A DNA stretch of 35,342 nt from Actinomycetota bacterium. GTDB lineage: Bacteria > Actinomycetota > Acidimicrobiia > Acidimicrobiales > CAIXPF01. Location of the stretch: the NCBI GenBank assembly GCA_016870475.1, contig VGBO01000023.1, positions 1 through 35,342 of the forward strand. The letters run 5' to 3'. A model generated the notes under the pieces. The model had not been told where the DNA came from, searched no databases, and was given only the letters and a program-made list of their open reading frames with translations. Each line of letters starts with the position of its first letter. Within the stretch, counting starts at the first letter, position 1. The position numbers and the translations under genes are program-made. Below are positions 11,738-29,131 of the stretch, one piece after another.

Positions 11738-12373
11738 GTGTTCGACGGCCTCACCGACGTGATCACCCGCATCGTCGAAACCCTCGGCGCCGTCGGCGTC
11801 GCCCTCCTCGTCGCCGTCGAGAACGTCTTCCCGCCGATCCCCTCCGAGCTCGTGCTGCCCCTCGCCGGGTTCGTCGCCGGACGCGGTGACGCGTCGCTCA
11901 CGGCGATGCTCATCGGCGCCACGACCGGGTCGGTCGTCGGGGCGTGGATCCTCTACGGGATCGCCGCCTGGATCGGCCACGATCGCCTCCACCGGCTCGT
12001 CCGACGCCACGGCCGGTGGTTCGGGGTCCGTATCGCCGACCTCGAACGGGCGGAGGCGTGGTTCGACCGACGCGCCGCGTCGACCGTGCTGGTCGGCCGC
12101 TGCGTGCCCCTCATCCGGTCGCTCATCTCCGTGCCCGCCGGTTTCCGCCGCATGCCGCTCGGCCGGTTCACCGTCTACACGGCGATCGGCAGCACGATCT
12201 GGAACGGTGCGCTCATCGGCGCCGGTGCGGTGCTCGGCGACCAGTGGGAACGAGTCGGCGGCGTCGTCGAACGATTCCAGTGGGTCGTCGTGGCGTGCAT
12301 CGCCCTCGGAGCGGCGGTCTTCGCCTGGAAGCGGATCCTCTCGCCTCGGCTCCGTCGCACCCCCGACTGCTAG
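11738..12373 (+). CDS. DedA family membrane protein
   Basis: DedA proteins are inner-membrane proteins; studied members act as lipid-carrier or phospholipid translocases and affect envelope stress resistance. The 211-residue product has the conserved ENVFPPIPSELVLPLAG near the start, and the core GRCVPLIRSLISVPAGFRRMPLGRF, with the Arg and Gly residues typical of the re-entrant loop. Three to four membrane helices surround these, with a basic C-terminal end. GTG 11738 is preferred over ATG 11717, because TAGTGT lies 8 bases before it and ATG 11717 would touch the divergent start codon; ATG 11717 does have GAGGGG just upstream. It ends with TAG, 9 bases before the alcohol dehydrogenase gene. 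Confidence 0.9.
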   Translation: MFDGLTDVITRIVETLGAVGVALLVAVENVFPPIPSELVLPLAGFVAGRGDASLTAMLIGATTGSVVGAWILYGIAAWIGHDRLHRLVRRHGRWFGVRIADLERAEAWFDRRAASTVLVGRCVPLIRSLISVPAGFRRMPLGRFTVYTAIGSTIWNGALIGAGAVLGDQWERVGGVVERFQWVVVACIALGAAVFAWKRILSPRLRRTPDC

Positions 12374-12382
12374 AACACCGCC

Positions 12383-13414
12383 ATGCGCGCAGGGCGGATC
12401 ACCGGCCGGTACTCCTTCGAGCTCGCCGAGGTCGACGAACCCACGCCCGCTGCCGGGCAGGCCGTCGTCGACGTGCTGCTGTGCGGCGTCTGCGGCAGCG
12501 ACGTGCACGCCTACACCGAAGGGTGGGCCTACAACCCCGGCGTCTGCGGCCACGAGTGGGTCGGCGTCGTGCGCGAGGTCGCACCCGGCGTGCGGGTCGT
12601 CCGGCCCGGCGACCGGGTCACCGCCGGGCTCGCACCCGGATGCGGCACCTGCCCGGAGTGCCGGGCCGCGCTGCCCGAGTACTGCTCGGTTGCGTTCAGC
12701 GGGTACACGGGTCGCCTCGCCCCGACGAACGGCGGATTCGCCCGCTCGATCGCGATCGACGCCAACCGGCTCTGCCCGATGCCCGCCGGCATCAGCGACG
12801 TCGCCGCAGCGATCGTGGAACCCACCGCCGTCGCCCTGCACGGTGTGCGCCGCAGCCGCATGCGGATCGGCGACGTCGTCGCCGTGGTCGGCTGCGGGCC
12901 GATCGGCCTGCTCGCCCTGCAATGCGCCAAGGTCGGCGGTGCCGGCCACGTCATCGCCGTCGAACTGGACGAGACCCGCCGGGCGCGTGCCCTCGCCGTC
13001 GGCGCCGACGCGGCCCTCGCACCCGGACCGGAACTCCGCGAGCACCTCAACACCGTCACCGGCGGGTTGCGCGCCGACATCGCCTTCGACTGCGCCGGCG
13101 TGCCCGCGACGCTGCAGGCATCGGTCGACCTCGTCCGGCGCGGCGGGTCGGTGTGCATGCTCGGCGTCACCTCCGGCGACGCCACGGTGCAGCCCATCCG
13201 CTGGATGAACAAGGAGGTCTCCGTCGACACCTCCTTCGTGTTCACCCTCGAGGAGATGGCGATCGCCGCTGACCTGATCCGCACCGGACGGATCAAGGTC
13301 GCCGAACTGCACGACGGGACGATCACCCTCGACGACCTCGGCCGAACCATCGACGATCTCGCCCACCGGCGCATCCAGGCGGTGAAGCTGCTCGTCGACC
13401 CGACCGCCGGATGA
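12383..13414 (+). CDS. zinc-dependent medium-chain alcohol dehydrogenase
   Basis: Cytoplasmic NAD(P)-linked oxidoreductase, probably acting on a secondary alcohol or polyol; the butanediol/sorbitol dehydrogenase group is the nearest guess. The 343-residue product has catalytic zinc ligands Cys37 (CGVCGSD), His57-Glu58 (CGHEW) and Glu in VEPTAV (about 149). The structural zinc site is complete (Cys87, Cys90, Cys93, Cys101). The dinucleotide-binding turn is VGCGPIGLLALQCAK (about 170-184). ATG 12383 is preceded by TAGAAC, which overlaps the dedA stop. The stop TGA shares bases with the next ATG (ATGA at 13411), so it starts a coupled three-gene operon. Confidence 0.93.
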   Translation: MRAGRITGRYSFELAEVDEPTPAAGQAVVDVLLCGVCGSDVHAYTEGWAYNPGVCGHEWVGVVREVAPGVRVVRPGDRVTAGLAPGCGTCPECRAALPEYCSVAFSGYTGRLAPTNGGFARSIAIDANRLCPMPAGISDVAAAIVEPTAVALHGVRRSRMRIGDVVAVVGCGPIGLLALQCAKVGGAGHVIAVELDETRRARALAVGADAALAPGPELREHLNTVTGGLRADIAFDCAGVPATLQASVDLVRRGGSVCMLGVTSGDATVQPIRWMNKEVSVDTSFVFTLEEMAIAADLIRTGRIKVAELHDGTITLDDLGRTIDDLAHRRIQAVKLLVDPTAG

Positions 13415-14232
13415 CGCGCCGTCGCGGCGTCGCCGCTGCGATCGCCACCGCAGCAGTCCTTCTGCTCGGGGCCTGCGAGATCGAACCGAGCGGCGTCGAC
13501 CCCGAGGTGCGCGAGGTGGTCACCGACGCCGGGGACGCCCGAGCCCCCGCCGCGACCGCCGCCGACACGAGAGGCACCACCACGGCACCCTCGCCGGGAT
13601 CGCCGTCCACCGTCCGGCCGACGTCCACCACGCGGCCCGTCGCACCGTCCGGCGGCAACGCGGCCGGCACGGCGGCGACCGTGACCCGCATCGTCGATGG
13701 CGACACCCTCGTCGTGGTCGTCGGCGGTGGGGCCACCGAGACCGTGCGCGTCGCCGGCATCGACACGCCCGAACGCGGCGACTGCGGGTACGGCGAAGCC
13801 ACCCGCCACCTCTCCTCGCTCACCCTCGGCCGGAACGTGGTGCTCACCCGAGCCGACAGCGACGACCGGGACCGGTACGGACGGCTCATCCGCTACATCG
13901 ACGTCGACGGCGTCGACGCCGGCCTCGCCCAGATCACCGGCGGGTTCGCGATCGCCCGCTACGACAGCCGCGACGGGTACGGATGGCACCCGCGCGAGGA
14001 CGACTACATCGCCGCCGACAACGCCACCGCCCACATGTGCCCGGGGTTCGGGTCGACGTCGGGTCGAGGTGTCACCGGCACCACCGCCACCTCCTCGACG
14101 AACGCCGCCGGCGAGGTGTACTACGCGAACTGCGCCGCAGCACGAGCGGCGGGGGCCGCGCCGATCCGCCAAGGGCAACCCGGCTACCGAACCGCCCTCG
14201 ACGGGGACCGGGACGGTGTCGCCTGTGAATGA
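13411..14232 (+). CDS. lipoprotein with a thermonuclease domain and an Excalibur domain
   Basis: Likely secreted, membrane-anchored nuclease. The 273-residue product starts with a lipoprotein signal (basic start, hydrophobic core, lipobox LLGAC with Cys22). A Thr/Ser/Pro-rich linker of about 60 residues is followed by the staphylococcal-nuclease-like domain (about 88-215): TRIVDGDTLVV, VRVAGIDTPERG and DRDRYGRLIRYI, which hold the Asp, Arg and Glu residues that bind Ca2+ and cut phosphodiesters. The last 38 residues are an Excalibur domain with the calcium-type motif DGDRDGVACE and paired Cys. It overlaps the dehydrogenase by 4 bases and the next gene by 8. An envelope nuclease in an operon with two oxidoreductases is unexpected. 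Confidence 0.92.
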   Translation: MTRRRGVAAAIATAAVLLLGACEIEPSGVDPEVREVVTDAGDARAPAATAADTRGTTTAPSPGSPSTVRPTSTTRPVAPSGGNAAGTAATVTRIVDGDTLVVVVGGGATETVRVAGIDTPERGDCGYGEATRHLSSLTLGRNVVLTRADSDDRDRYGRLIRYIDVDGVDAGLAQITGGFAIARYDSRDGYGWHPREDDYIAADNATAHMCPGFGSTSGRGVTGTTATSSTNAAGEVYYANCAAARAAGAAPIRQGQPGYRTALDGDRDGVACE

Positions 14233-15265
14233 GCACCTCGAGTTCGGTCTCGACACGTTCGGCGACGTCACCGTCGACCCCGACGGCCACCACGTCCCCC
14301 ACCCTCAGGTCCTCCGGGACGTCGTGGAACAGGCCGTGCTCGCCGACCGCCTCGGCCTCGACAGCTTCGGGGTGGGCGAACACCACCGAGCCGACTTCGC
14401 CGTGTCTGCACCCGAGGTGGTGCTCGGGGCCATCGCCGGGCGCACCGAGCGGATCCGCCTCACCTCCGCCGTGACGGTGCTCAGCTCCGACGACCCGGTC
14501 CGCGTCTACCAGCGGTTCGCGACCCTCGACGCTCTCGCGGAGGGACGCGCCGAGGTGGTGCTCGGACGTGGGTCGTTCACCGAGTCGTTCCCGCTGTTCG
14601 GCCACGACCTCGGCGACTACGGCACCCTGTTCGAGGAGAAGCTCGACCTGTTCGCCGCACTGCGCACCGAGGGCCCGATCACCTGGACGGGCACCACCCG
14701 TGCCCCGCTGCGCGACCAGCGCATCTATCCGACGACCGCCGCCGGGCTGCGCACGTGGGTCGGCGTCGGCGGCAGCCCGGAGTCGGTCGTACGGGCCGCC
14801 CGTCACGGGTTCCCGCTCATGCTCGCCGTCATCGGCGGCGAACCGGCACGCTTCGCCCCCTACGTCGAGCTCTACCACCGGGCACTCGACCGGTTCGGCC
14901 ACCCACCACAGCCCGTCGGCATGCACAGCCCCGGCCACGTCGCCGCCACCGACGACGAAGCACGCGACGCCTACTGGCCCCACTGGTCGGTGATGCGCGA
15001 CCGGATCGGCCGCGAACGCGGCTGGCCGCCGACGAGCCGGGCGGAGTTCGAGGCCACCGCCGGGCCGGACGGCGCGCTGTTCGTCGGCAGCCCCGACACC
15101 GTCGCACAGAAGATCGCCCGGGTCGCGCCGACGCTCGGCCTCGACCGGTTCGTGCTCAAGTACAGCTCCGGCACGCTCCCCCACGACCGGTTGCTGCGGT
15201 GCGTCGACCTCTACGCCACCGAGGTCGTGCCCAGGGTGCGTGCGCTCCTCTCCTCCGCCCGCTGA
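14225..15265 (+). CDS. LLM-class flavin-dependent oxidoreductase
   Basis: Luciferase-like (bacterial luciferase fold) enzyme using FMN or F420 to oxidise an unknown substrate. The 346-residue product has the TIM-barrel pattern: EFGLDTFGDV at the start, ADRLGLDSFGVGEHHRADFA (about 41-60, with the EHH motif), TERIRLTSAVTVLSSDDPVR, and ATLDALAEGRAEVVLGRGSF. A C-terminal DTVAQKIARVAPTLGLDRFVLKYSSG helix-strand matches the family end. The GTG at 14225 overlaps the nuclease stop (GTGAATGA), so translation is probably coupled. The EHH-type group is often FMN-dependent, but the cofactor cannot be settled here. It converges with the MFS gene, 7 bases away. Confidence 0.9.
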   Translation: MNEHLEFGLDTFGDVTVDPDGHHVPHPQVLRDVVEQAVLADRLGLDSFGVGEHHRADFAVSAPEVVLGAIAGRTERIRLTSAVTVLSSDDPVRVYQRFATLDALAEGRAEVVLGRGSFTESFPLFGHDLGDYGTLFEEKLDLFAALRTEGPITWTGTTRAPLRDQRIYPTTAAGLRTWVGVGGSPESVVRAARHGFPLMLAVIGGEPARFAPYVELYHRALDRFGHPPQPVGMHSPGHVAATDDEARDAYWPHWSVMRDRIGRERGWPPTSRAEFEATAGPDGALFVGSPDTVAQKIARVAPTLGLDRFVLKYSSGTLPHDRLLRCVDLYATEVVPRVRALLSSAR

Positions 15266-16556: not shown

Positions 16557-17606
16557 ATGACCCCGACCCTTCGTGAACGGATCCGCGGCTGCCTTCTCGC
16601 CGGAGCGATCGGCGACGCGCTGGGGGCGCCCGTGGAGTTCGCGTCGCTCGCCGAGATCGTCGACCGGTTCGGACCGGCCGGGCTGACCGGGTACGCGCCC
16701 GCGTACGGCCGCGACGGCGGGGCGATCACCGACGACACCCAGATGACGCTCTTCACCGCCGAGGGGCTGCTGCGGGCCCGCGCCGCCGGGGTCGACGCCG
16801 AGACCGACGCGTTCGTCCAACGCGCCTACTGGCGGTGGCTCGCCACCCAGGGCCACGAGCCACCCGCCGCAGCCGGCGACGTGCGCGACGGCTGGCTCTT
16901 CGACCTCGACGACCTCCACCGGCGCCGCGGTCCCGGCACGACCTGCCTGACCGCCCTCGTGTCCGGGCAGGTGGGTGCCGTCGGCCGACCGGTGAACTGC
17001 TCCAAGGGATGCGGGGGGATCATGCGGGCCGCACCGGCCGGCATCGTGGCCACGGGCGTCGCAGCGTTCGATCTCGGGGTGCGAACGGCAGCGCTCACCC
17101 ACGGGCACCCGAGCGGCTACCTCGCCGCCGGGGTCCACGCGCTGCTCGTCGCGGAGCTCCTCGCCGGGGCCGGTCTCGACGCGGCACTCGACGTGGCCGT
17201 CGCCCAACTGCGCGACCAGGACGGCCACGACGAGACCCTCGCGGCGATCGACGCGGCGCGACGCCTCGCGGCGGAAGGTCCGCCGACCGCCCTCCGGCTG
17301 GCAACGCTCGGTGAGGGCTGGGTCGCGGAGGAGACGCTCGCCATCGCCGTATACGCAGCGCTCAGCCACCCCGGTCCGCACGAGGTGGTCGCCGGCCTGC
17401 TCCTCGCCGTCAACCACGACGGCGACACCGACTCGACGGGGAGCGTGACGGGGAACCTCCTCGGTGCACTCCACGGCGTGCCGGCCCTCCCCCGCAACCT
17501 CCTCGACGACCTCGAGCTCGCCACGGTGCTCACGACCGTCGCCGACGACCTCCACGCCGTCTTCCACGGTACCGCTCCGGTGCCGGACCGGTACCCGCCC
17601 CGCTGA
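16557..17606 (+). CDS. ADP-ribosylglycohydrolase family protein
   Basis: Cytoplasmic all-helical enzyme with a two-magnesium centre that removes ADP-ribose from proteins, nucleic acids or small molecules. The 349-residue product has the family landmarks: RGCLLAGAIGDALGAPVEF (about 9-27), TDDTQMTLF (about 61-69, first metal site), and DGDTDSTGSVTGNLLGALHG (about 287-306, second metal site). All acidic ligands are present, so it should be active. No macrodomain, ART toxin or DraT-like transferase is next to it, so the target is not suggested by context. It is followed at once by a strong hairpin (17610-17635), so it is likely a single-gene transcript. Confidence 0.93.
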   Translation: MTPTLRERIRGCLLAGAIGDALGAPVEFASLAEIVDRFGPAGLTGYAPAYGRDGGAITDDTQMTLFTAEGLLRARAAGVDAETDAFVQRAYWRWLATQGHEPPAAAGDVRDGWLFDLDDLHRRRGPGTTCLTALVSGQVGAVGRPVNCSKGCGGIMRAAPAGIVATGVAAFDLGVRTAALTHGHPSGYLAAGVHALLVAELLAGAGLDAALDVAVAQLRDQDGHDETLAAIDAARRLAAEGPPTALRLATLGEGWVAEETLAIAVYAALSHPGPHEVVAGLLLAVNHDGDTDSTGSVTGNLLGALHGVPALPRNLLDDLELATVLTTVADDLHAVFHGTAPVPDRYPPR

Positions 17607-20040: not shown

Positions 20041-20898
20041 TCAGACCGGCGCGCCGACCTGCGCGACGACCGCGGCCCCGAGCGCCGTCGCGGGGTCGAG
20101 CAGGTCGAACACGACGTCGAAGTGGTTCCGACCCGACGCTGCGAGCACCGTCGCCGCACGGTTGCCCGGCGCCGCCGACCAGTGCCGCGCCCAACGACGG
20201 GACTGACGGGCGAACTCCGCGGTCTCCTCCGCCCCCCACGTCACCACCGTCGGTACGCCCGGACGGACCGGGGTGGGAGCGCCGAGCGGGCTGAGGCGCG
20301 CCGCCATCGCCGCGTCGAGACGGACGTCGTCGTTGATCGTCGTGAACCGGGTCGGCTCGAGGTCGAACACCCCCGAGACGAACACGTACCCCGCAACTGC
20401 CGGTTCGGTGAGGGCGACCATGGCGGCAAGGTGTCCGCCCGCCGAATGCCCCATCACGTGGACACGGGCGCCGTCGTGGCCGCCGTCGACCCCGGCCACC
20501 AACCGGGCGACCGTCGCGCGGACCTGCGCGACCAGCACGTCGAGCGGAGCGCTCGGACACAGGGAGTAGTTCACCGACACGCACGCGAACCCCGCCGTCG
20601 CCGCGGCAGGGAACAGGAAGCAGCCGTCGTCACCGGAGAGACGCCGCCAGTAGCCGCCGTGCACGAACACCACGAGCGGCGCGGAGGCATCGGCCCCCGG
20701 GGCGTACCAGTACCACTCGTCCGGACCGTCGCCGAACGCGACCTTCCGGCAGGGGACCTGCGCCCGGGCCTCGACGCCACGTGCCGCGTAGGCCTCGAGG
20801 AACGGAGCGAGCGACGGGACGTGCATGCTCGGCTGGTACTGCGACTCCACCGTCGCTGCGTCCATGCCCCGGTAGACGGCGGATGACGACGACGTCAC
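20041..20898 (-). CDS. alpha/beta hydrolase, kynurenine formamidase-like
   Basis: Serine hydrolase of the esterase/arylformamidase type; a plausible reaction is N-formylkynurenine hydrolysis in tryptophan breakdown, but esters are equally possible. The 285-residue product has the oxyanion motif HGGYWR (80-85), the nucleophile elbow GHSAGGH with Ser152, and a late His in RNHFDVVFDLL (about 261). The GMDAATVESQYQPS start (residues 11-24) matches the family's substrate-entry region. GTG 20898 overlaps the upstream kinase stop (GTGA), so it is translated together with the kinase. No other kynurenine-pathway gene is in the window, which weakens the pathway guess. Confidence 0.88.
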   Translation of the reverse strand: MTSSSSAVYRGMDAATVESQYQPSMHVPSLAPFLEAYAARGVEARAQVPCRKVAFGDGPDEWYWYAPGADASAPLVVFVHGGYWRRLSGDDGCFLFPAAATAGFACVSVNYSLCPSAPLDVLVAQVRATVARLVAGVDGGHDGARVHVMGHSAGGHLAAMVALTEPAVAGYVFVSGVFDLEPTRFTTINDDVRLDAAMAARLSPLGAPTPVRPGVPTVVTWGAEETAEFARQSRRWARHWSAAPGNRAATVLAASGRNHFDVVFDLLDPATALGAAVVAQVGAPV

Positions 20899-22793
20899 GT
20901 GTCCGGCACCAGTTCTGCGTGCATCCGGTCGAGGGACTGCTGGGCGACGAGCATCGCCTTGCGGGCGGTGAAAGGGACCCGACCCGTGTTCTCGAGCACA
21001 CGCCACTCCGTGCCGAGCGATGTCACCGCCGCCCGCAGACTCGCCGGGTCGGCGTCCGCGCCGAGGCCCAGACGGTTCGCCGGCACGGCGAACAACAACA
21101 GCCGCCGCACCTGCTCCCGCAGGCCGGGCGGGAGGTTCGCCCGCCCACCGGCCAACTCGCGCAGCAGCGTCAGCTCGCTGATCGCCGCCAGCTCGCCGGC
21201 GAGCAGATCGACCTCCTCGAGGATCGCCGCCCGATCGGTGGGCGTGGCCGCACCCGTCGCCGCGACCTGCAGCAAGGCGAGACCCGCCGACGCCCGCAGC
21301 AGCGGGGCACGCAGCGCGGCGAGCTCCGCCGCCGTGGCGCCGATGCCGACGAGCGCGTCGTCGTCGAGCACCGCGGGGACCCCGGCCCCGACACCGATGG
21401 AGGGCCGCGCCGCCAGGTCGGCGGCGACCGCCGCCGCATCACCGCCCGCAGCGGGGACCACGAGGATCTCCACCGCGACGGGACCGGCGACCGCCCTGCG
21501 CAGCACGGCGCCCAGATGGCTCGTCACCTCCGCCGGCGCAGGCGAATCAGCGCCGAGCAACAACACGGCGACATCGGCCCCGGCGACGACGGGGTCGTCC
21601 GGCGACACGGCCCGCCGAACCTCCACCCCGGGACGCTGGGCGAGGAGGTCGCCGAGCACCGAACCGCCCACCGAACGTGGACCCGTGTCGCCGACGAGCA
21701 CGACCTGGACGTCGCGACGCAGTCGTTCCTCGGCCGTCGCGAGCGCCGCGACCCCCTCCGGGCCCACCACCCGCCCCCGGACCGCCGACAGCAGGTCGAG
21801 GACGCGACCTGCGGCGCCGACCGGCTCGACGGGCGCTCCACTCGGAGCGGCCGACTCGACCACCGTGGCGGGCGCGGCCGGTGGCGGCGGTGCTGCCGGT
21901 GGCACGACGGCGACGGGCGGGCCGGCGAGCTCGGCGAGCACCCCGGCGAGCGCGATCACCGACGGGAACCGGTCGTCGGGACGGTGAGCGAGACCCTGCG
22001 CGATCAGCCGGTCGAACCGGGCGTCGAGCTCGGGCCGCAACGTCGACGGCGGCGGCGCGCCCTGGTTCACCCGACCCCGCCGCACCCCCGACAGCGTGTC
22101 GGAGGAGAACGCAGGGCGACCGCACAGCAGCTCGTAGACGACCGCGGTCACGGCGAACACGTCGACCCTGCGGTCGATCACCGACGACGCCTCGGCCTGC
22201 TCCGGCGCCATGTACGCCGGGGTGCCGGCCGCCAGCGTGAACCCGCTCGCCGCCGCGAGATCCTTGGCGAGGCCGAAGTCCGCGATCATCACCGCCTCGT
22301 CGCCGCGCTCGCGTCCCGCCCGCTGTGCGGCGATCCGCTCGTGCGTCCTCACCGAACGGAACAAGATGTTCGACGGCTTGATGTCGCGGTGCACGACCCC
22401 GAAGTCGTGCACGACCGCGAGGGCCTCGCAGATCTCGATCCCGAGCGCCAAGGCCTCCGGCACCGGGAAGGGGTCCGCGGCGCTGCGGGCGGCGATCCGG
22501 TCGTAGAGCGTGCCCCGATCGGCCCAGGACATGACGATGTAGGGACGACCGTCGTCGAGCTCGTTGATCTCGTGCACCCGGACGATGTGCTCGTGGTCGA
22601 TCCGCCGCAGGATCCGGGCCTCGTCGATGAACCGCTGCCGGACCCCGGCGTTCCGCGCCCAGTTGTCGGCCAGCACCTTGATCGCGACGCGCGTCTCGAG
22701 CAGCTCGTCGAAGGCGAGCCAAACCGTCGCGAAGCTGCCGGCGCCGAGCGCCTTCTCCGCCCGGTACCTCCCGATGCGCCCTGCGTCAGCCAC
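20895..22793 (-). CDS. Ser/Thr protein kinase with a C-terminal GTPase-like domain lacking a P-loop
   Basis: The 632-residue product begins with a complete PknB-type kinase domain (about 8-290): Gly loop GAGSFATV (17-24), Lys39 (VAIK), catalytic HRDIKPSN (135-142), DFG (172-174), APE (196-198). A Pro/Ala linker (291-325) follows; no membrane helix is visible, unlike most PknB-type receptors. Residues 328-632 look like the GTPase modules found in actinobacterial dynamin-like clusters, with strand VQVVLVGDTGPRSVGGSVLG (362-381) where GxxxxGKS would be, then ADVAVLLLGADSPAP and a long helical end. The Walker A Lys-Ser is missing, so nucleotide binding is doubtful. GTG 22793 is preferred, preceded at 6 bases by GACAAT. 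Divergent from the Hsp70 gene. Confidence 0.85.
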   Translation of the reverse strand: MADAGRIGRYRAEKALGAGSFATVWLAFDELLETRVAIKVLADNWARNAGVRQRFIDEARILRRIDHEHIVRVHEINELDDGRPYIVMSWADRGTLYDRIAARSAADPFPVPEALALGIEICEALAVVHDFGVVHRDIKPSNILFRSVRTHERIAAQRAGRERGDEAVMIADFGLAKDLAAASGFTLAAGTPAYMAPEQAEASSVIDRRVDVFAVTAVVYELLCGRPAFSSDTLSGVRRGRVNQGAPPPSTLRPELDARFDRLIAQGLAHRPDDRFPSVIALAGVLAELAGPPVAVVPPAAPPPPAAPATVVESAAPSGAPVEPVGAAGRVLDLLSAVRGRVVGPEGVAALATAEERLRRDVQVVLVGDTGPRSVGGSVLGDLLAQRPGVEVRRAVSPDDPVVAGADVAVLLLGADSPAPAEVTSHLGAVLRRAVAGPVAVEILVVPAAGGDAAAVAADLAARPSIGVGAGVPAVLDDDALVGIGATAAELAALRAPLLRASAGLALLQVAATGAATPTDRAAILEEVDLLAGELAAISELTLLRELAGGRANLPPGLREQVRRLLLFAVPANRLGLGADADPASLRAAVTSLGTEWRVLENTGRVPFTARKAMLVAQQSLDRMHAELVPDT

Positions 22794-22799
22794 GCCGCC

Positions 22800-22805
22800 A
22801 TTGTC
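22800..22805 (-). promoter_or_regulatory. -10-like box for the kinase gene
   Basis: On the minus strand GACAAT ends 6 bases before GTG 22793: leaderless arrangement, imperfect box. Confidence 0.35.
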
Positions 22806-22858
22806 GCCGCTCGGCGGCGCCGCTGCTGCACCGGTGCGATGGCGCCGGGAGGACCGGC

Positions 22859-22864
22859 TACCGT
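22859..22864 (+). promoter_or_regulatory. -10-like box for the Hsp70 gene
   Basis: TACCGT lies 27 bases before GTG 22892. A transcript from about 22871 would carry the GGAAGG ribosome-binding site in a leader of about 20 bases. Confidence 0.4.
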
Positions 22865-22891
22865 TGCTCCGCACCCGACCGGAAGGCGACG

Positions 22892-24940
22892 GTGGTGGCA
22901 ACGCGACCCTGGATCCTCGCGATCGACTTCGGCACCAGCTATACGGTCGCCGCCGCGCGGCTCGAAGGACGCGAGCCCGAGGTCATCGAAATCGGGGGCG
23001 AGCGACGCATACCCTCCGTCGTCCTCGTCGACGCCGACCGGATCATCGTCGGCCGGGTCGCCGACGAACTCGCGTCGGCGAACCCCGCGGCCACGCTGCG
23101 GGCGCCGAAGAGCCGCCTCGGCGACCAGGTCCCCGTCGTGCTCGGCGGTCGCCCGTACCAGGTCGTCGATCTCGTCAGCGCACAGCTCGCGCACGTCTAC
23201 GAGGAAGCGACGCGCCAGATGGGCGGCCCACCCGACGCTGTGAAGCTCACCCACCCCGCCGGGTGGAACCGACCGTGGCTGAACCGGCTACTCGACGCAG
23301 CCCGGCGCGCCGGGATCGAGGAGGCGACCCTCGTCCCCGAACCGGTCGCCGCGGCGCTCACGTTCGCGAGCGAGGTCGGCGTCGACGACGGCGACCACAT
23401 CGCCGTGTACGACCTCGGCGGCGGAACGTTCGACACCGCAGTCGTCGCATCCGACGGCGACGGGTTCCGGGTCGTCGGCCGTCCCGGCGGCGACAACACG
23501 ATCGGCGGCGAGCTCTTCGACGAGATCCTCCTCAACCTAATCGGCGCCGAACTCCCCGCCGAGGCGTGGCAGGCCCTGCAGGTCGGCGCCGACGCCACCT
23601 GGATGCAGGTGGCCGCGAACCTGCGCAAGGAGGCCCGTCGCGCAAAGGAGATGCTGTCGGCCCACCCCTACGCCGATGCGCTCGTCGCGCTTCCCGACGG
23701 GATCCGCACCGTGCGGATCACCCAGGCCACCTACGAGACCCTCATCACCCCCTACATCGAGGAGACGATCACCCTTCTCGACCGGTGCATCGCGAACGCC
23801 GGGTTGCGCCCCGACCAGCTCGTCGCCATCTCCCTCGTCGGCGGGGCGAGCCGGACCCCGCTCGTGGAGCGCTTCGCCGCGGAGGCGTTCCCCGGGGTGC
23901 CGATCAGCCGGCGCGGCGACCCGAAGACCTCGACCGCCATGGGGGCGGTGCGAGCCAGCGAGACGAACGACGCTGCGATCGGCCTCGCCGGGTGGGCGAC
24001 CGACCCCTCCGCCGGGGCGGCCCCGGCGGCCCCGGCGGCCCCGGCGGCAGCCGCCGCAGCCACCGAGATCACCCCGGCGGACCCCTCGACCATCGGACCG
24101 CCGACGATGCAGTCGCCACCACGGGTCGAACCTCCGGCACGACCCCCCGTCGCTGCACCGGCCGCCTACGCAGCACCGGCCGCGCCGCCCGCCTTCACAC
24201 CCAACCCCCCCGTCCACGCGGCGCCGGCCGCACCGGCGCCAACCCGGCGACGACGGCGCGGCGGCCGGATCATGCTCGGACTGCTCGTCGTCGCCGCAGG
24301 TGCCGGCGTCGCCGCGTTCGCGCTGCTCCGGAGCGCCGACGGCACCGCCGGACGGTCGACGGCGACGGCGGAGGAGGAGATCACCGACGGCACGGTCCGT
24401 CCGCTCAGCACCACGGCGCTGCGCAACCGGCTGCTCGAACCGGACCAGGTCAGCGATGCGATCGGGCAACCGATCGCCGAAGTGCAGCCCGGGAACCGCG
24501 TCGTGACCTGGTGCGGTCGGGACCTGCTGCCGGCGACGAGCTACGCGAGCCGGACCTTCGAGGAGACGGTCGGCGACCGGCGGGTGCTCGTGAGCCTCAC
24601 CCGGTACGACTCCGTTCCCGACGCCGAGGCGGCGTTCGCCGAGTGGGCGAGCTTCGGCGCCGACTGTCCCGAACCGTCGGTGCTGTCGGGGGGCCAGGTC
24701 CTCACCTTCCGTCTCACCCCGCTCGAGACCGACGACCCGGGCGGCACCGCTGCGTACGCGGTCGACTACTCCGCCGACGGCACCACCGTGACCGCGACGG
24801 AGTTCTTCGCGGCGACCGTGCAGGGCGCCAACATGTCCATCGAGTCCCTCGTCGTCCTCGGCCGGGTCGCGGACGAGTTCGACGCAGCCGACTTCTTCAA
24901 CCTCGTCCTCGAGGCCACGGCGAAAGCCGCCCGGGGATGA
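22892..24940 (+). CDS. membrane-anchored Hsp70-family protein with an extracytoplasmic domain
   Basis: The 682-residue product starts with an actin-fold ATPase (about 8-370): AIDFGTSYT (phosphate 1), DLGGGTFD (about 174-181, phosphate 2), LVGGASRTPL (about 315-324, adenosine). The Hsp70 substrate-binding domain is absent. Instead there is an Ala/Pro-rich linker (about 375-455), a basic patch RRRRRGGR, one membrane helix (about 461-481), and an outer domain (about 500-682). That domain resembles the PknH-type extracellular sensor fold (LLEPDQVSDAIGQPIAEV, Cys in TWCGRD and in ADCPEP, possibly a disulfide). GTG 22892 (or 22895) has GGAAGG upstream. The antiporter follows after 16 bases. Chaperone activity should not be assumed. 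Confidence 0.88.
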   Translation: MVATRPWILAIDFGTSYTVAAARLEGREPEVIEIGGERRIPSVVLVDADRIIVGRVADELASANPAATLRAPKSRLGDQVPVVLGGRPYQVVDLVSAQLAHVYEEATRQMGGPPDAVKLTHPAGWNRPWLNRLLDAARRAGIEEATLVPEPVAAALTFASEVGVDDGDHIAVYDLGGGTFDTAVVASDGDGFRVVGRPGGDNTIGGELFDEILLNLIGAELPAEAWQALQVGADATWMQVAANLRKEARRAKEMLSAHPYADALVALPDGIRTVRITQATYETLITPYIEETITLLDRCIANAGLRPDQLVAISLVGGASRTPLVERFAAEAFPGVPISRRGDPKTSTAMGAVRASETNDAAIGLAGWATDPSAGAAPAAPAAPAAAAAATEITPADPSTIGPPTMQSPPRVEPPARPPVAAPAAYAAPAAPPAFTPNPPVHAAPAAPAPTRRRRRGGRIMLGLLVVAAGAGVAAFALLRSADGTAGRSTATAEEEITDGTVRPLSTTALRNRLLEPDQVSDAIGQPIAEVQPGNRVVTWCGRDLLPATSYASRTFEETVGDRRVLVSLTRYDSVPDAEAAFAEWASFGADCPEPSVLSGGQVLTFRLTPLETDDPGGTAAYAVDYSADGTTVTATEFFAATVQGANMSIESLVVLGRVADEFDAADFFNLVLEATAKAARG

Positions 24941-24956
24941 GGACCGGGGCGCGACC

Positions 24957-27074
24957 ATGACGGTGCTCGCAGCCGGCGCCCCTGGGACCGATCCCTTCGT
25001 CCGTCTGCTCGTCTGCCTCGTCATCGTGCTCGCACTCGGTCGCGTCGTCGGCGCCGCCTGTCGCAAGCTCGGCCAGCCGGTCGTGATCGGCGAGATCCTC
25101 GCGGGGATCGCGCTCGGACCGAGCCTGCTCGGCCTCCTCCCCGGCGACCTCGACACGCTGCTGTTCCCCGAGACCGTGCGGCCGTACCTGAAGCTGGTCG
25201 CGCAGCTCGGCCTCGTGCTGTTCATGTTCATCGTCGGTCTCGAGGTCGACCTCGACGTCGTGCGGCGCAGCGGCAAGCGAGCGCTCGCGATCTCGCTCAC
25301 CTCGATCGCGTTCCCGTTCCTCCTCGGCATCGGCATCCTCGGCACCTACCTGCACGAGGACCACAGCTGTGTCGCAGTGAGCGTCACCCGAGCGGCCGAG
25401 CTCGGCGAGGGCGACGAGCGCGCCTGCACCTCCGAGGAGGTCGAACGGAAGATCGCGGCGGCGGAGGAGGCGGGGACGACGCCACCGGTCGGTCGGACCG
25501 TCGACCAGTTCCCCTTCGGGTTCTTCATCGGCGTGTCGATGTGCGGCACCGCGTTCGCCGTGCTCGCACGGATCCTCGCCGAACGGGACATGTTCAAGAT
25601 CCCACTCGGCATGCTCCTCATCGCGTGCGCGGCGATCGACGACATCGTCGCCTTCACCCTGCTCGCCTTCGCCGCTGCACTCGCCGGCGGCGGGACCGTC
25701 GGCAGCGTCGTCGTCATGCTCGGACAGCTCGCCCTGTTCGTCGCGCTCCTCGTCGTGGTCGTCCGTCCGTTGCTCGAACGGTTCGTCGTGCGCAGCTACC
25801 GGGTGGCCGGTCGGCTCGCACCCGAACACCTCGCCGTCCTGCTGATCGGCCTGCTCGCCTCGGCGTGGACCACGTCGCTCATCGGGGTGCACGAGCTCAT
25901 CGGTGCCTTCCTGTTCGGGGCGATCGTTCCCCGACGGGACGCCCACGGCCTCTTCCACGCCGTCGCCGATCGGCTCGACGGTGTGAGCGTGCAACTCCTC
26001 CTGCCCGTGTTCTTCGTCGTCGCCGGCCAGGGGGTCGACATCGGCGGGCTCGGGCGCGACGACATCGTGCCGACGCTCGCCATCCTGGCCGTGGCCTGTG
26101 TCGGCAAGTTCGTCGGCGGGGCGCTCGCCGCTCGGGCGACCGGCGTCCCGAAACGACAGTCGCTCGCCGTCGGGACGATGATGAACACCCGCGGCCTCGC
26201 CGAACTCGTCATCCTCCAGGTCGGGCGCGACGCCGGCGTCATCGACGACGGGGCGTACACGATGCTCGTCATCATGGCGATCGTCACGACGGCGATGTCG
26301 GGGCCGTTGCTCAAGTTCGTCTACCCCGACCGTTGGCTCCAGCGGGACATCGCCGAGGCGGCCCGAACGGGCGGTGGCGACGGCGCGGTCGTCGTCGTCG
26401 ACGACCCGGCCGACGCCCTCCCGCTCGTCGACACGGCGATCGGCTTCAGCGGCGCCCGGCGTGACGCGCTGGTCCACCTCGTGCGCCTCGTCGGACCCGA
26501 CGTCGGCGTCGCCGGGATCGCCGACGCTCTCGCCGAGTCGGAGGTGCTGCGCCGGCGGGTCACCGACGCCGGCGGGAACGCCACGGTCATCAGCCGCATC
26601 ACGGTGGACCGGGCGGCCGACGTGCTCGCCGAGATCACCCGGCTCGCGCCCGACGTGGTCGTCTGCAGCACCGCCGATGCCGACCTCGTCGAATCGATCA
26701 CCGCGTCGGGCACCGACGCGGTCGTCGTCGGCGGGCCCGTACCGACCGCCGGCACGATCGGCGCACCCGGCGGAGGCGGGAACGCCGACCGTGCCGCGCT
26801 CGAGGTCGCCGCACGCCTCGCCCTGCACCACGGTCTGCCCCTCCACGTCGAGGGCGGTGGCGGTCGGCTCCTCCGTGGGCTGCGCAGCCTCGGCGTCCGG
26901 GCGGTGGACACCGCAGGGACCGACACCGAGGGGCACCTCGTCGTCGTCGCCGGTGACGGGGGTGCCACCGCCGCGCTGCGCGTGCACCCGGGCGCACGCG
27001 ACCGGGTCGCCATCACCGAACGGCTCGGGCGATGGCGACCGGGGGACACCGTCATCCCCCTCAGCAGTCGCTAG
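24957..27074 (+). CDS. CPA2-family cation/proton antiporter with a USP-like tail
   Basis: Inner-membrane monovalent cation:proton antiporter (KefB/NapA-like), 705 residues. The membrane part (about 12-465) has GQPVVIGEILAGIALGPSLL, FMFIVGLEVDLD, the ion-site pair Asp-Asp in CAAIDDIVAFTLLAF, and the late MMNTRGLAELVILQVGRD. An unusual extra loop (about 133-183) between early helices carries two Cys and many charged residues, and probably faces outside. The soluble tail (about 475-705) looks like two weak universal-stress-protein halves (VVVVDDPADALPLVDTAIGF; and DRAALEVAARLALHHGLPLH). It starts 16 bases after the Hsp70 gene, so it is probably co-transcribed. It ends with TAG and converges with the FHA gene. 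Confidence 0.9.
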   Translation: MTVLAAGAPGTDPFVRLLVCLVIVLALGRVVGAACRKLGQPVVIGEILAGIALGPSLLGLLPGDLDTLLFPETVRPYLKLVAQLGLVLFMFIVGLEVDLDVVRRSGKRALAISLTSIAFPFLLGIGILGTYLHEDHSCVAVSVTRAAELGEGDERACTSEEVERKIAAAEEAGTTPPVGRTVDQFPFGFFIGVSMCGTAFAVLARILAERDMFKIPLGMLLIACAAIDDIVAFTLLAFAAALAGGGTVGSVVVMLGQLALFVALLVVVVRPLLERFVVRSYRVAGRLAPEHLAVLLIGLLASAWTTSLIGVHELIGAFLFGAIVPRRDAHGLFHAVADRLDGVSVQLLLPVFFVVAGQGVDIGGLGRDDIVPTLAILAVACVGKFVGGALAARATGVPKRQSLAVGTMMNTRGLAELVILQVGRDAGVIDDGAYTMLVIMAIVTTAMSGPLLKFVYPDRWLQRDIAEAARTGGGDGAVVVVDDPADALPLVDTAIGFSGARRDALVHLVRLVGPDVGVAGIADALAESEVLRRRVTDAGGNATVISRITVDRAADVLAEITRLAPDVVVCSTADADLVESITASGTDAVVVGGPVPTAGTIGAPGGGGNADRAALEVAARLALHHGLPLHVEGGGGRLLRGLRSLGVRAVDTAGTDTEGHLVVVAGDGGATAALRVHPGARDRVAITERLGRWRPGDTVIPLSSR

Positions 27075-27086
27075 GGCATACGCCCG

Positions 27087-28322
27087 TCAGCGCTGGCGGA
27101 GCGGCGACTCGAACGTCGCCGCCTGACGCCCGAAGGCCACGTGCGTTCCCGGCAGGAGCGCCCGCGGCTGGTCGACGCCGAGGCGGTCCCAGGCCCGGCG
27201 CGCCTCGTCCCAGACGTAGGTGCCGTTCGTGGACCCGCGGTCGACGATGAGCACGTCCCACCCGACGAGCCGGATCTCGGCGTGCACCCGGGACAGCGTG
27301 TTCGTCACGTCGACGAGCGGGACCGCGGTCGCCTCACCGCGCAGCACGGCGGGATCGTCGACCGGATCTCGCCCGAGGACGATCGTCCGGGCGAGCGAGC
27401 GGTGCGACCCGTCACTGAAGGTGAGCACACCGAGCGGCGGCCGCACCTCCTCCTCGAGGATGAAGCTCGCCTGGTGCATCGCGATCCCACACACCGCGCA
27501 GTAGCGGACCCGGGGATCGTTGAAGTGGTCACGGGAGCACCGCAGACCCTGCACGTGCACCTGCTCGTCCTCGGTCGGCTCGATCGGTTCGACGATCGAG
27601 CCGCCCGGGACGGCCGACGCCACCGCATCGGGAACCGCCGCGGCGACGGCCGCGGCCGCCGGCTCGGGCGCTGGGGCGGGCTCCGGCGCAGGGGCGGGCT
27701 CGGGCGCAAGTGCGGGCTCGGGCGCAGGTGCGGGCTCGGGCGCAGGTGCGGCGACGACCGGGAGCGGCTCGACGGGCGGAAGGTCCTCGTCGTCGGGAGC
27801 GGTGAGGGAGACGACGTCCGGCGTCGGCGCCGACACCGCCGCGACCGCCGGCGGTGACGCCCACGCGGCGGCGGGGGCGGGCCGGGAGATCCGCACCTCG
27901 AAGCCCGCTGCAGCGACGACACCACGCTCGAGCTCGAGGAGCGGATCGGCAACGGACCCGTCCGGCACCAGCCACACGCCGTCGGCAGCGGCGACCCGCC
28001 GCCGCACCAGGCCGTCCCCCGCGACCACCTCGACCGAACCCCCCGCCCGGACCGCGAGCGGCAGACCACCGGAGACGGCCACCTCCACGGCGTCGTCGTC
28101 GAGCACGAGCAGGACGAACGGCCCGACCGACGGGCCGGTGTCGACCGCACGACCGAGGTCGGCGAGCACCTCCGCCGCCGACCGGTCGCCGACGAAACGG
28201 CACCAGCCGACGAGCGCGGCCGTCGCCGGTCCCTCCCCGGTCGTGAACAGGACGGTGCGACCCTGACGGACGAGCCGCCCCGTCCCGGCACCGTGATGGG
28301 GGATGACGACGTGCGCGGTCAT
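27087..28322 (-). CDS. FHA-domain protein with a zinc ribbon and Pro/Ala/Glu repeats
   Basis: Phosphothreonine-reading protein, 411 residues, probably cytoplasmic. The N-terminal 165 residues form a protein-phosphatase-like or unknown domain (HHGAGTGRLVRQGRTVLFTT, later AVSGGLPLAVRAGG) that I cannot name firmly. A linker of EPAPAP repeats follows (about 188-221). Near 261 is a Cys-rich element (CSRDHFNDP then YCAVCGIAM), as seen in actinobacterial FHA proteins. The FHA domain is C-terminal (about 305-405): LGRDPVDDPAV, LSRVHAEIRL, and DRGSTNGTYVW, with the Arg, Ser-Arg-His and Asn-Gly residues that bind phosphothreonine. ATG 28322 overlaps the kinase stop (ATGA), so the kinase-FHA pair is coupled and a likely substrate-reader pair. 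Confidence 0.9.
   Translation of the reverse strand: MTAHVVIPHHGAGTGRLVRQGRTVLFTTGEGPATAALVGWCRFVGDRSAAEVLADLGRAVDTGPSVGPFVLLVLDDDAVEVAVSGGLPLAVRAGGSVEVVAGDGLVRRRVAAADGVWLVPDGSVADPLLELERGVVAAAGFEVRISRPAPAAAWASPPAVAAVSAPTPDVVSLTAPDDEDLPPVEPLPVVAAPAPEPAPAPEPALAPEPAPAPEPAPAPEPAAAAVAAAVPDAVASAVPGGSIVEPIEPTEDEQVHVQGLRCSRDHFNDPRVRYCAVCGIAMHQASFILEEEVRPPLGVLTFSDGSHRSLARTIVLGRDPVDDPAVLRGEATAVPLVDVTNTLSRVHAEIRLVGWDVLIVDRGSTNGTYVWDEARRAWDRLGVDQPRALLPGTHVAFGRQAATFESPLRQR
27662..27751 (-). repeat. five tandem 18-base repeats coding for EPAPAP
   Basis: Units at 27662, 27680, 27698, 27716 and 27734; the last two are identical and the others differ at one to four bases. They encode the hexapeptide linker of the FHA protein and may vary in copy number between strains. 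Confidence 0.9.
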
Positions 28323-29131
28323 GGTTCGGTTCCTCCGGAACATCCGTCGAGGAGGTCGGCGAGCGCCTCGGCGGTGGGGGGTCTCGCCTCGACGGCCACG
28401 TCGAGGCACGCTTCGATGATCGCCGCGACGTCGTCGTCGAGCAGGTCGCGGCGCACCGTCGGCGGCCGGCGCAGCACGGTGCGCACGGCGAGCATCGGGT
28501 CGGCCGGATCGAGGCCGGCGAAGACGTCCTGGGCGGTGAGCACCCGGTGCAGCGTCGCCGCCAACGCGTACACGTCGGTCGGCCGGCCCGCCGAACCCCC
28601 GCGGAGCAGCTCCGGGTCGACGAACCCGATGGAAGCCATCGGGGCCATCGAGGTCATCGACGACGATCCGAGCTGGGCGAGCCCGAGGTCGGCGAGCGCC
28701 GCCGACCCGTCCGCACGCACCAGCACGTTCCCCGGGCGGATGTCGCGGTGCACGATGCCGGACTCGTGCAGGGCGTGCGCCGCCCGCGCCGCCTGCGCGA
28801 CCGCACGGATGCGACCGGAACGGTCGAGCGCTGCTGGATCCTCCAGCGAACCCCCCGGACACCACTCCATCGAGTAGAAGAACCGATCCTCGTGCTGGCC
28901 GGCGTCGTAGAGGCGCACGAGGTTCGGGTGCGCGACCCGGGCGAAGAGCTTCAGCTCGCGGGTGAACCGGCGGAACGCGGTGTCGTCGCCACCCGCGACG
29001 ACCTTGACGACCACACGGTCGACGTCGAGGCCGAGCCGCGCCGGCGGCACCGCGAGGTGGAACCGCCCGTGCCCGCCGTCCGCGAGCGGGTCGACCAACT
29101 CGTAGTCGGCGATCCTGCCCGCGTCCTGCAC
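28319..29131 (-). CDS. small soluble Ser/Thr protein kinase
   Basis: Single-domain kinase of 270 residues with no membrane helix or sensor domain. Landmarks: Gly loop LADGGHGRF (16-24), Lys43 (VVKVV), catalytic loop HRDIRPGN (128-135), DLG (148-150) and DPELLRGG in place of APE (172-179). The catalytic Asp, Asn and Lys are present, so it may be active, but Arg replaces the usual loop Lys (HRDIKP) and DLG replaces DFG. The activation segment SSSMTSMAPMAS is rich in Ser/Thr. GTG 29131 is preferred over ATG 29179 because GAGGAGG lies 4 bases upstream. It is coupled to the FHA gene by ATGA and divergent from an LLM gene (141-base gap). Targets may include the FHA protein. Confidence 0.9.
   Translation of the reverse strand: MQDAGRIADYELVDPLADGGHGRFHLAVPPARLGLDVDRVVVKVVAGGDDTAFRRFTRELKLFARVAHPNLVRLYDAGQHEDRFFYSMEWCPGGSLEDPAALDRSGRIRAVAQAARAAHALHESGIVHRDIRPGNVLVRADGSAALADLGLAQLGSSSMTSMAPMASIGFVDPELLRGGSAGRPTDVYALAATLHRVLTAQDVFAGLDPADPMLAVRTVLRRPPTVRRDLLDDDVAAIIEACLDVAVEARPPTAEALADLLDGCSGGTEP

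Follow-up and report, generated by a model that had tools for sequence, protein, structure and literature searches.

The stretch of DNA analysed here (the window) is a complete 35 kb contig (VGBO01000023.1, 35,342 nucleotides) from the draft genome of an Actinomycetota bacterium (2.45 Mb, 98.7% complete), with the appearance of a high-GC actinobacterium. Its principal feature is a pair of adjacent genes, encoding a transmembrane Hsp70 with a receptor-like build and a serine/threonine kinase (STK1) whose tail descends from an IniC-type dynamin. These genes belong to a cluster of five that also encodes a CPA2 cation/proton antiporter, a protein with a zinc ribbon and an FHA domain, and a second kinase (STK2). 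A sequence-only reading of the window had interpreted the cluster as one candidate phospho-signalling module. On recheck all five reading frames and their coordinates held, as did the 16 bases between the Hsp70 stop and the antiporter start and the ATGA overlap between STK2 stop and FHA start (28322-28319), and all five proteins matched Pfam families above cut-off (Pkinase, HSP70, Na_H_Exchanger, FHA, and Pkinase). A single fixed five-gene module was rejected, since the full set was confined to the window and was split into two sets in other genomes. The five genes resolve into two conserved modules, STK1-Hsp70 (module A) and STK2-FHA (module B), which meet at one antiporter. The receptor-like Hsp70 and the kinase/pseudo-dynamin that accompanies it are a stronger result than the single module.

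Our preferred reading, to which we assign a probability of about 0.4, is that an Hsp70 receptor controls a docked STK1, with the FHA protein and the NapA-type antiporter acting downstream. Relatives were surveyed in up to 298 genomes from the same order as the window genome. Gene calls were incomplete in lower-GC loci, and linkage there was re-checked by tblastn.

Receptor-Like Build of the Transmembrane Hsp70

The Hsp70 gene (22892..24940, forward strand; HSP70 E 2.7e-36) encodes an intact ATPase domain with the motifs IDFGTSYT, DLGGGTFD, and LVGGASR. The Pfam HSP70 match ended at profile position 368 of 599, and a substrate-binding domain was not found. C-terminal to the ATPase domain follow a Pro/Ala linker, the stretch RRRRR and, just behind it, one transmembrane (TM) helix predicted from hydropathy and sequence (residues 457-482, 24260..24337), beyond which lies an outer domain (24338..24937). 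According to the positive-inside rule, a basic stretch marks the cytoplasmic side of a membrane, and the position of RRRRR would therefore place the ATPase domain inside. The membrane anchor proposed earlier was retained, and in its predicted build the Hsp70 resembles a membrane receptor.

The best Pfam match of the outer domain was PknH_C (PF14032), at 16.3 bits against a cut-off of 27 (E 0.0094), and a PknH_C identity is left open here, as a lead only. Outer domains of two related Hsp70s (loci L042 and L119, described below) were 25-26% identical to that of the window when aligned, and two cysteines were invariant. Short Hsp70s of the window type were found in 16 of 148 genomes. Behind the TM helix, related Hsp70s carried Peripla_BP_6/ANF_receptor (L060, 1160-4003), Big_9 (L091), propeller repeats (L066), Septum_form (L101, 9107-11191), or BON (L105, 8989-11313) domains, while other C-terminal parts gave a weak cupredoxin match (L080, 2589-4286) or FGE-sulfatase matches (L072, 8569-11148; L078, 452-3154); in L060, L105, L101, L080, L072, and L078 these parts lie mostly, not all, behind a TM helix. 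Unrelated outer domains were swapped behind one type of Hsp70 ATPase domain in a pattern like that of receptor families.

A scan of genome contigs for Hsp70 relatives returned distant proteobacterial Hsp70s only. At L109 (9452-14513), a kinase that carries PKD repeats comes after a short Hsp70, possibly a further Hsp70-kinase pairing.

STK1 and Its Decayed Dynamin Tail

STK1 (20895..22793, reverse strand; Pkinase E 3.7e-41, residues 10-275) is separated from the divergent Hsp70 gene by 98 bases (22794..22891) that presumably contain a shared promoter region. Its catalytic motifs are complete (VAIK, HRDIKPSN, ADFGLAK, and APEQ), and the VAIK Lys, HRD Asp, and DFG Asp were kept in all four genomes with a tail-bearing STK1. 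The tail itself (20898..21806, reverse strand) gave no Pfam match and no convincing PDB match. When the STK1 tails of the window, L042, and L091 were compared with 13 IniC-like GTPases by hhalign, they matched the C-terminal half of these proteins with 98.7% probability (E 2e-16), over 135 columns at 25% identity. The same comparison gave no match to IniA-like GTPases (hhalign probability 0.4%), leaving the IniC-like match only.

The P-loop G-x4-GK[S/T] and the motif D-x-P-G were sought in the four STK1 tails (window, L042, L091, and L119) and were absent from each of them, whereas G-x4-GKS and DTPG were present in 13 of 13 IniC-like proteins compared. The L042 tail keeps the outline VVVVGPSDGTTSELAFALAGERLSP, other tails read like VAIAGKVKAGKSTLLNALVGEELAP at that place, and in the L119 protein most of the GTPase part is gone. 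Because the P-loop and DxPG have been lost, GTPase activity is not expected. The GTPase-like character earlier ascribed to the tail thus stands as a statement of descent, with the functional motifs missing: judged by profile and motif comparison, the tail is a dynamin-type GTPase that has decayed, not a working member of that family.

Conservation of the STK1-Hsp70 Pair and Its Dynamin-Bearing Relatives

Tail-bearing STK1 was present in 4 of 298 genomes, a count that left out three kinase-only matches with neither tail nor Hsp70 (G116, G061, and G059), and in all four it adjoined the same Hsp70 clade. STK1 and Hsp70 were 61 and 57% identical, respectively, to those of the window in L042 (genome G005, same family as the window), 62 and 54% identical in L119 (another family), where the contig edge falls within Hsp70, and 48 and 54% identical in L091 (a third family). 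The two genes are divergent in the window, L042, and L119 and in tandem in L091, where the gene next after Hsp70 encodes an FHA-TM-trypsin-like protein. Phylogenetic analysis placed six Hsp70s in one clade (support 0.84), four of which adjoin STK1. In L042, the antiporter gene follows Hsp70 as in the window, their ends touching at one base, and is itself followed by an acyl-CoA ligase-like gene, not by FHA or STK2. With Hsp70 and antiporter linked at a locus without module B, the antiporter has therefore joined module A too. The linkage exceeds chance: the neighbours reappear in other families, where their proteins are 40-60% identical.

Consistent with the comparison to iniBAC made in the sequence-only reading, IniA-like and/or IniC-like GTPases were encoded beside related Hsp70s in ten loci (L066, L068, L069, L092, L093, L097, L098, L099, L105, and L110), and the IniA-like protein of these loci matched IniA of M. 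smegmatis (6j72) with an E value of 1.7e-67. A search for dynamin or IniA in the window locus and genome gave only weak Der/Era-type matches. In L068, Hsp70 is fused to a zinc-ribbon-FHA unit that is 39% identical to that of the window, and the fusion gene diverges from an IniA-like gene. Genome G010 presents the mirror image of STK1, in which a live GTPase carries a kinase that is dead.

The L068 gene after the IniA-like one (11832-14663) encodes an IniC-like GTPase with an intact GKS, joined to a kinase domain in which HRD and DFG have become HQN and DFE, an arrangement that is the reverse of STK1. A row of genes in Nonomuraea gerenzanensis (L008, 4265-12136) comprises an IniC-like GTPase, a GrpE-domain gene, a dynamin, an Hsp70 that ends in a CD225-type tail, and a protein with a caspase domain.

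Module B and the Shared Antiporter

The soluble kinase STK2 (28319..29131, reverse strand; Pkinase E 4.5e-31) has intact motifs in the window (VVVK, HRDIRPGN, and DLG), and its gene converges, together with that of the FHA protein (27087..28322, reverse strand; FHA E 2.8e-7), on the antiporter gene. The FHA protein consists, in this order, of an N-terminal domain, a Pro/Ala/Glu linker, a zinc ribbon (CSRDHFNDPRVRYCAVCG; CxxxH...YCxxCG), and a canonical FHA domain with the GRDP, SRVH, and TNGT residues. STK2, counted at E values up to 1e-38, occurred in 20 of 298 genomes, with a zinc-ribbon-FHA protein encoded within about two genes in 19 of them. Some STK2-FHA pairs form part of extended gene runs that include another kinase (L129, 3357-10334; L131, 1215-8598; L138, 4749-12419). 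A TauE-type transporter is present in the L129 and L131 runs, and the runs also encode conserved proteins of two sizes (about 505-545 and 140-152 residues), which had no Pfam match where scanned.

The antiporter (24957..27074, forward strand; Na_H_Exchanger E 8.5e-49) had the Na+/H+ antiporter NapA (4bwz) as its closest PDB chain (E 1.5e-23), and an adjacent pair of Asp residues of the core helix, in AAIDDIVAF, aligned to VIDDVLG of NapA. Its soluble C-terminal tail, encoded from about position 26379, gave no Pfam match. This antiporter subfamily (E up to 1e-60) was found in seven of 198 genomes and was joined to module A or B in six: to STK2-FHA in G007, to STK2 in G023, to FHA in G034 and G118, to Hsp70-STK1 in G005, and to both modules in the window genome; in G015 it had none of these partners. 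STK2-FHA-antiporter sets also occurred in G286 and G209, from the same genus as G007, and the link between antiporter and module A was independently repeated in G005 only. The neighbourhood survey proposed in the sequence-only reading bore out its claim of linkage for the pairs and, through L068, for FHA and Hsp70. The whole set was not kept, and by the refuting condition that the reading had set itself, absence of five-gene linkage in relatives, it is refuted in part.

Elsewhere in the window, a tmRNA gene (671-1059; tag ANTDDLTLAA) and, upstream of the cluster, an ADP-ribosylglycohydrolase family gene (16557-17606) were found, the latter without obvious link to the cluster.

Proposed Mechanism and Alternative Explanations

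In the proposed mechanism, the outer domain of Hsp70 would sense an envelope or extracellular condition, and sensing would alter the nucleotide state of the cytoplasmic ATPase domain. As the peptide-binding domain is absent, the proposal has Hsp70 acting as a switch, not as a folding chaperone. The STK1 tail, as a helical remnant of an IniC-type dynamin, may dock the kinase on Hsp70 or on the membrane, where the Hsp70 switch would turn it on or off. Phosphorylation by STK1 and/or STK2 would then make sites for the zinc-ribbon-FHA protein, which may adjust the Na+/H+ antiporter made with Hsp70.

Several observations weigh against this interpretation. The five genes occur together in the window genome only. 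Two of the six Hsp70s in the clade (L058 and L059, both in G005) have no neighbouring kinase, the Hsp70-antiporter pair of G005 comes without FHA and STK2, and three genomes of genus g5 carry STK2-FHA-antiporter without Hsp70. The PknH_C match of the outer domain is below threshold, and neither the L042 nor the L119 outer domain gave such a match; single-sequence AlphaFold models of outer domain and STK1 tail were unusable (pLDDT 35 and 44). In addition, STK2 relatives carry HRA or HRN for HRD in L043 (5010-5813), L128 (8439-9260), L133 (8550-9371), and L135 (8760-9524), and the catalytic-motif region of the L139 protein is degraded. With the catalytic Asp lost in several relatives, kinase activity is therefore no fixed feature of STK2, a family that, from these substitutions, appears to be drifting to pseudokinases.

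A possible alternative, to which we give somewhat less weight than to the preferred reading, is that two independent neighbours lie side by side, STK1-Hsp70 serving envelope signalling and STK2-FHA-antiporter, in a manner comparable to PknF-Rv1747, serving phospho-controlled ion homeostasis, with the antiporter belonging to module B only and no cross-talk. The joint occurrence of the five genes in a single genome is in line with this explanation, as are module A without antiporter in L091 and module B with antiporter but without Hsp70 in L043, L123, and L124. However, the Hsp70 of G005 (L042) touches this rare antiporter where module B is absent, and the L068 protein joins a zinc-ribbon-FHA unit to an Hsp70. 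The L119 contig stops inside Hsp70, and the antiporter position lies beyond its range.

The ten loci that pair related Hsp70s with IniA/IniC-like GTPases, and the match of the IniA-like protein to 6j72, could also reflect a membrane-remodelling chaperone that assembles or disassembles membrane complexes at envelope damage, with kinase and antiporter as accessory repair functions instead of a signalling chain; IniA cuts membranes in vitro (PMC6715688). We consider this improbable for the window lineage, in which dynamin searches of the genome yielded only Der/Era-type matches, the STK1 tail has lost its GTPase, and the Hsp70 has no substrate-binding domain. Kaur et al. (2020) describe a GTPase/HSP70 class of conflict systems, and the cluster could be a stress-triggered conflict or cell-death system of that class: they report that actinobacterial kinases, GTPases, and HSP70s lacking a peptide-binding domain cluster (PMC7159879), and the Nonomuraea relative lies in a dynamin-Hsp70-caspase locus. 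For the window such a system is very unlikely: no effector domain was found at the locus, and neither an effector nor a DO-GTPase/GAP1-N2 partner was present among the Pfam-scanned neighbours, GAP1-N2 not having been searched by profile. Assignment to a known defence system was likewise rejected, as PADLOC matched only generic kinase domains.

Relation to Known Systems and Implications

Receptor Ser/Thr kinases such as PknH and PknB combine a cytoplasmic enzyme with one TM helix and an exchangeable outer sensor. The window Hsp70 follows the same plan, possibly down to a PknH_C-like fold, but the enzyme that spans the membrane here is an Hsp70 ATPase, with a soluble kinase as its separate partner. 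The antiporter shares the membrane domain and IDD motif of NapA-type CPA2 Na+/H+ antiporters. It differs from them in that a long insertion separates TM segments and a soluble tail of about 230 residues forms its C-terminus.

IniA is a membrane-cutting dynamin, and mycobacterial iniBAC, as described, contains neither Hsp70 nor antiporter (PMC6715688). The window resembles IniBAC in the IniC-like ancestry of the STK1 tail, and related Hsp70 loci hold IniA-like and P-loop-intact IniC-like GTPases; the window itself, in contrast, has no IniA, and a live kinase precedes its dead GTPase in one fusion protein. In M. tuberculosis, PknF and Rv1747 are a kinase and an FHA-bearing transporter, and iniBAC expression rises when either gene is lost (PMC3908365). 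Kinase, FHA domain, and transporter are encoded together in both cases, although the FHA domains of Rv1747 reside in an ABC exporter, whereas in the window the zinc-ribbon-FHA protein stands apart from the transporter, which is a CPA2 antiporter. Actinobacterial HSP70s without peptide-binding domain have been reported near GTPases and kinases (Kaur et al., 2020; PMC7159879). Short HSP70s of this type, GTPases, and kinases also characterize the window, in which, by contrast, the Hsp70 is predicted to span the membrane and carry an outer domain, the GTPase is decayed, and no effector was seen. A literature search returned no description of a receptor-like Hsp70 or of a dead dynamin joined to a kinase, but it covered few subscription papers and is weak evidence of absence.

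Beyond the window, we tentatively suggest, at somewhat less than an even chance, a receptor class in which the Hsp70 ATPase domain acts as cytoplasmic switch behind an exchangeable outer domain, its coupling partners being live IniA/IniC-type dynamins or, alternatively, in the window lineage, a Ser/Thr kinase docked by a dead dynamin. If this is correct, Hsp70 would serve as a signal receptor besides its role as folding machine, and a dynamin-type GTPase would have been converted to a docking part of a kinase. Envelope-stress loci around IniA/IniC would gain a sensing component, with contacts between receptor and kinase predicted, and several of the outer domains, such as the periplasmic binding protein and cupredoxin-like ones, hint at ligands.

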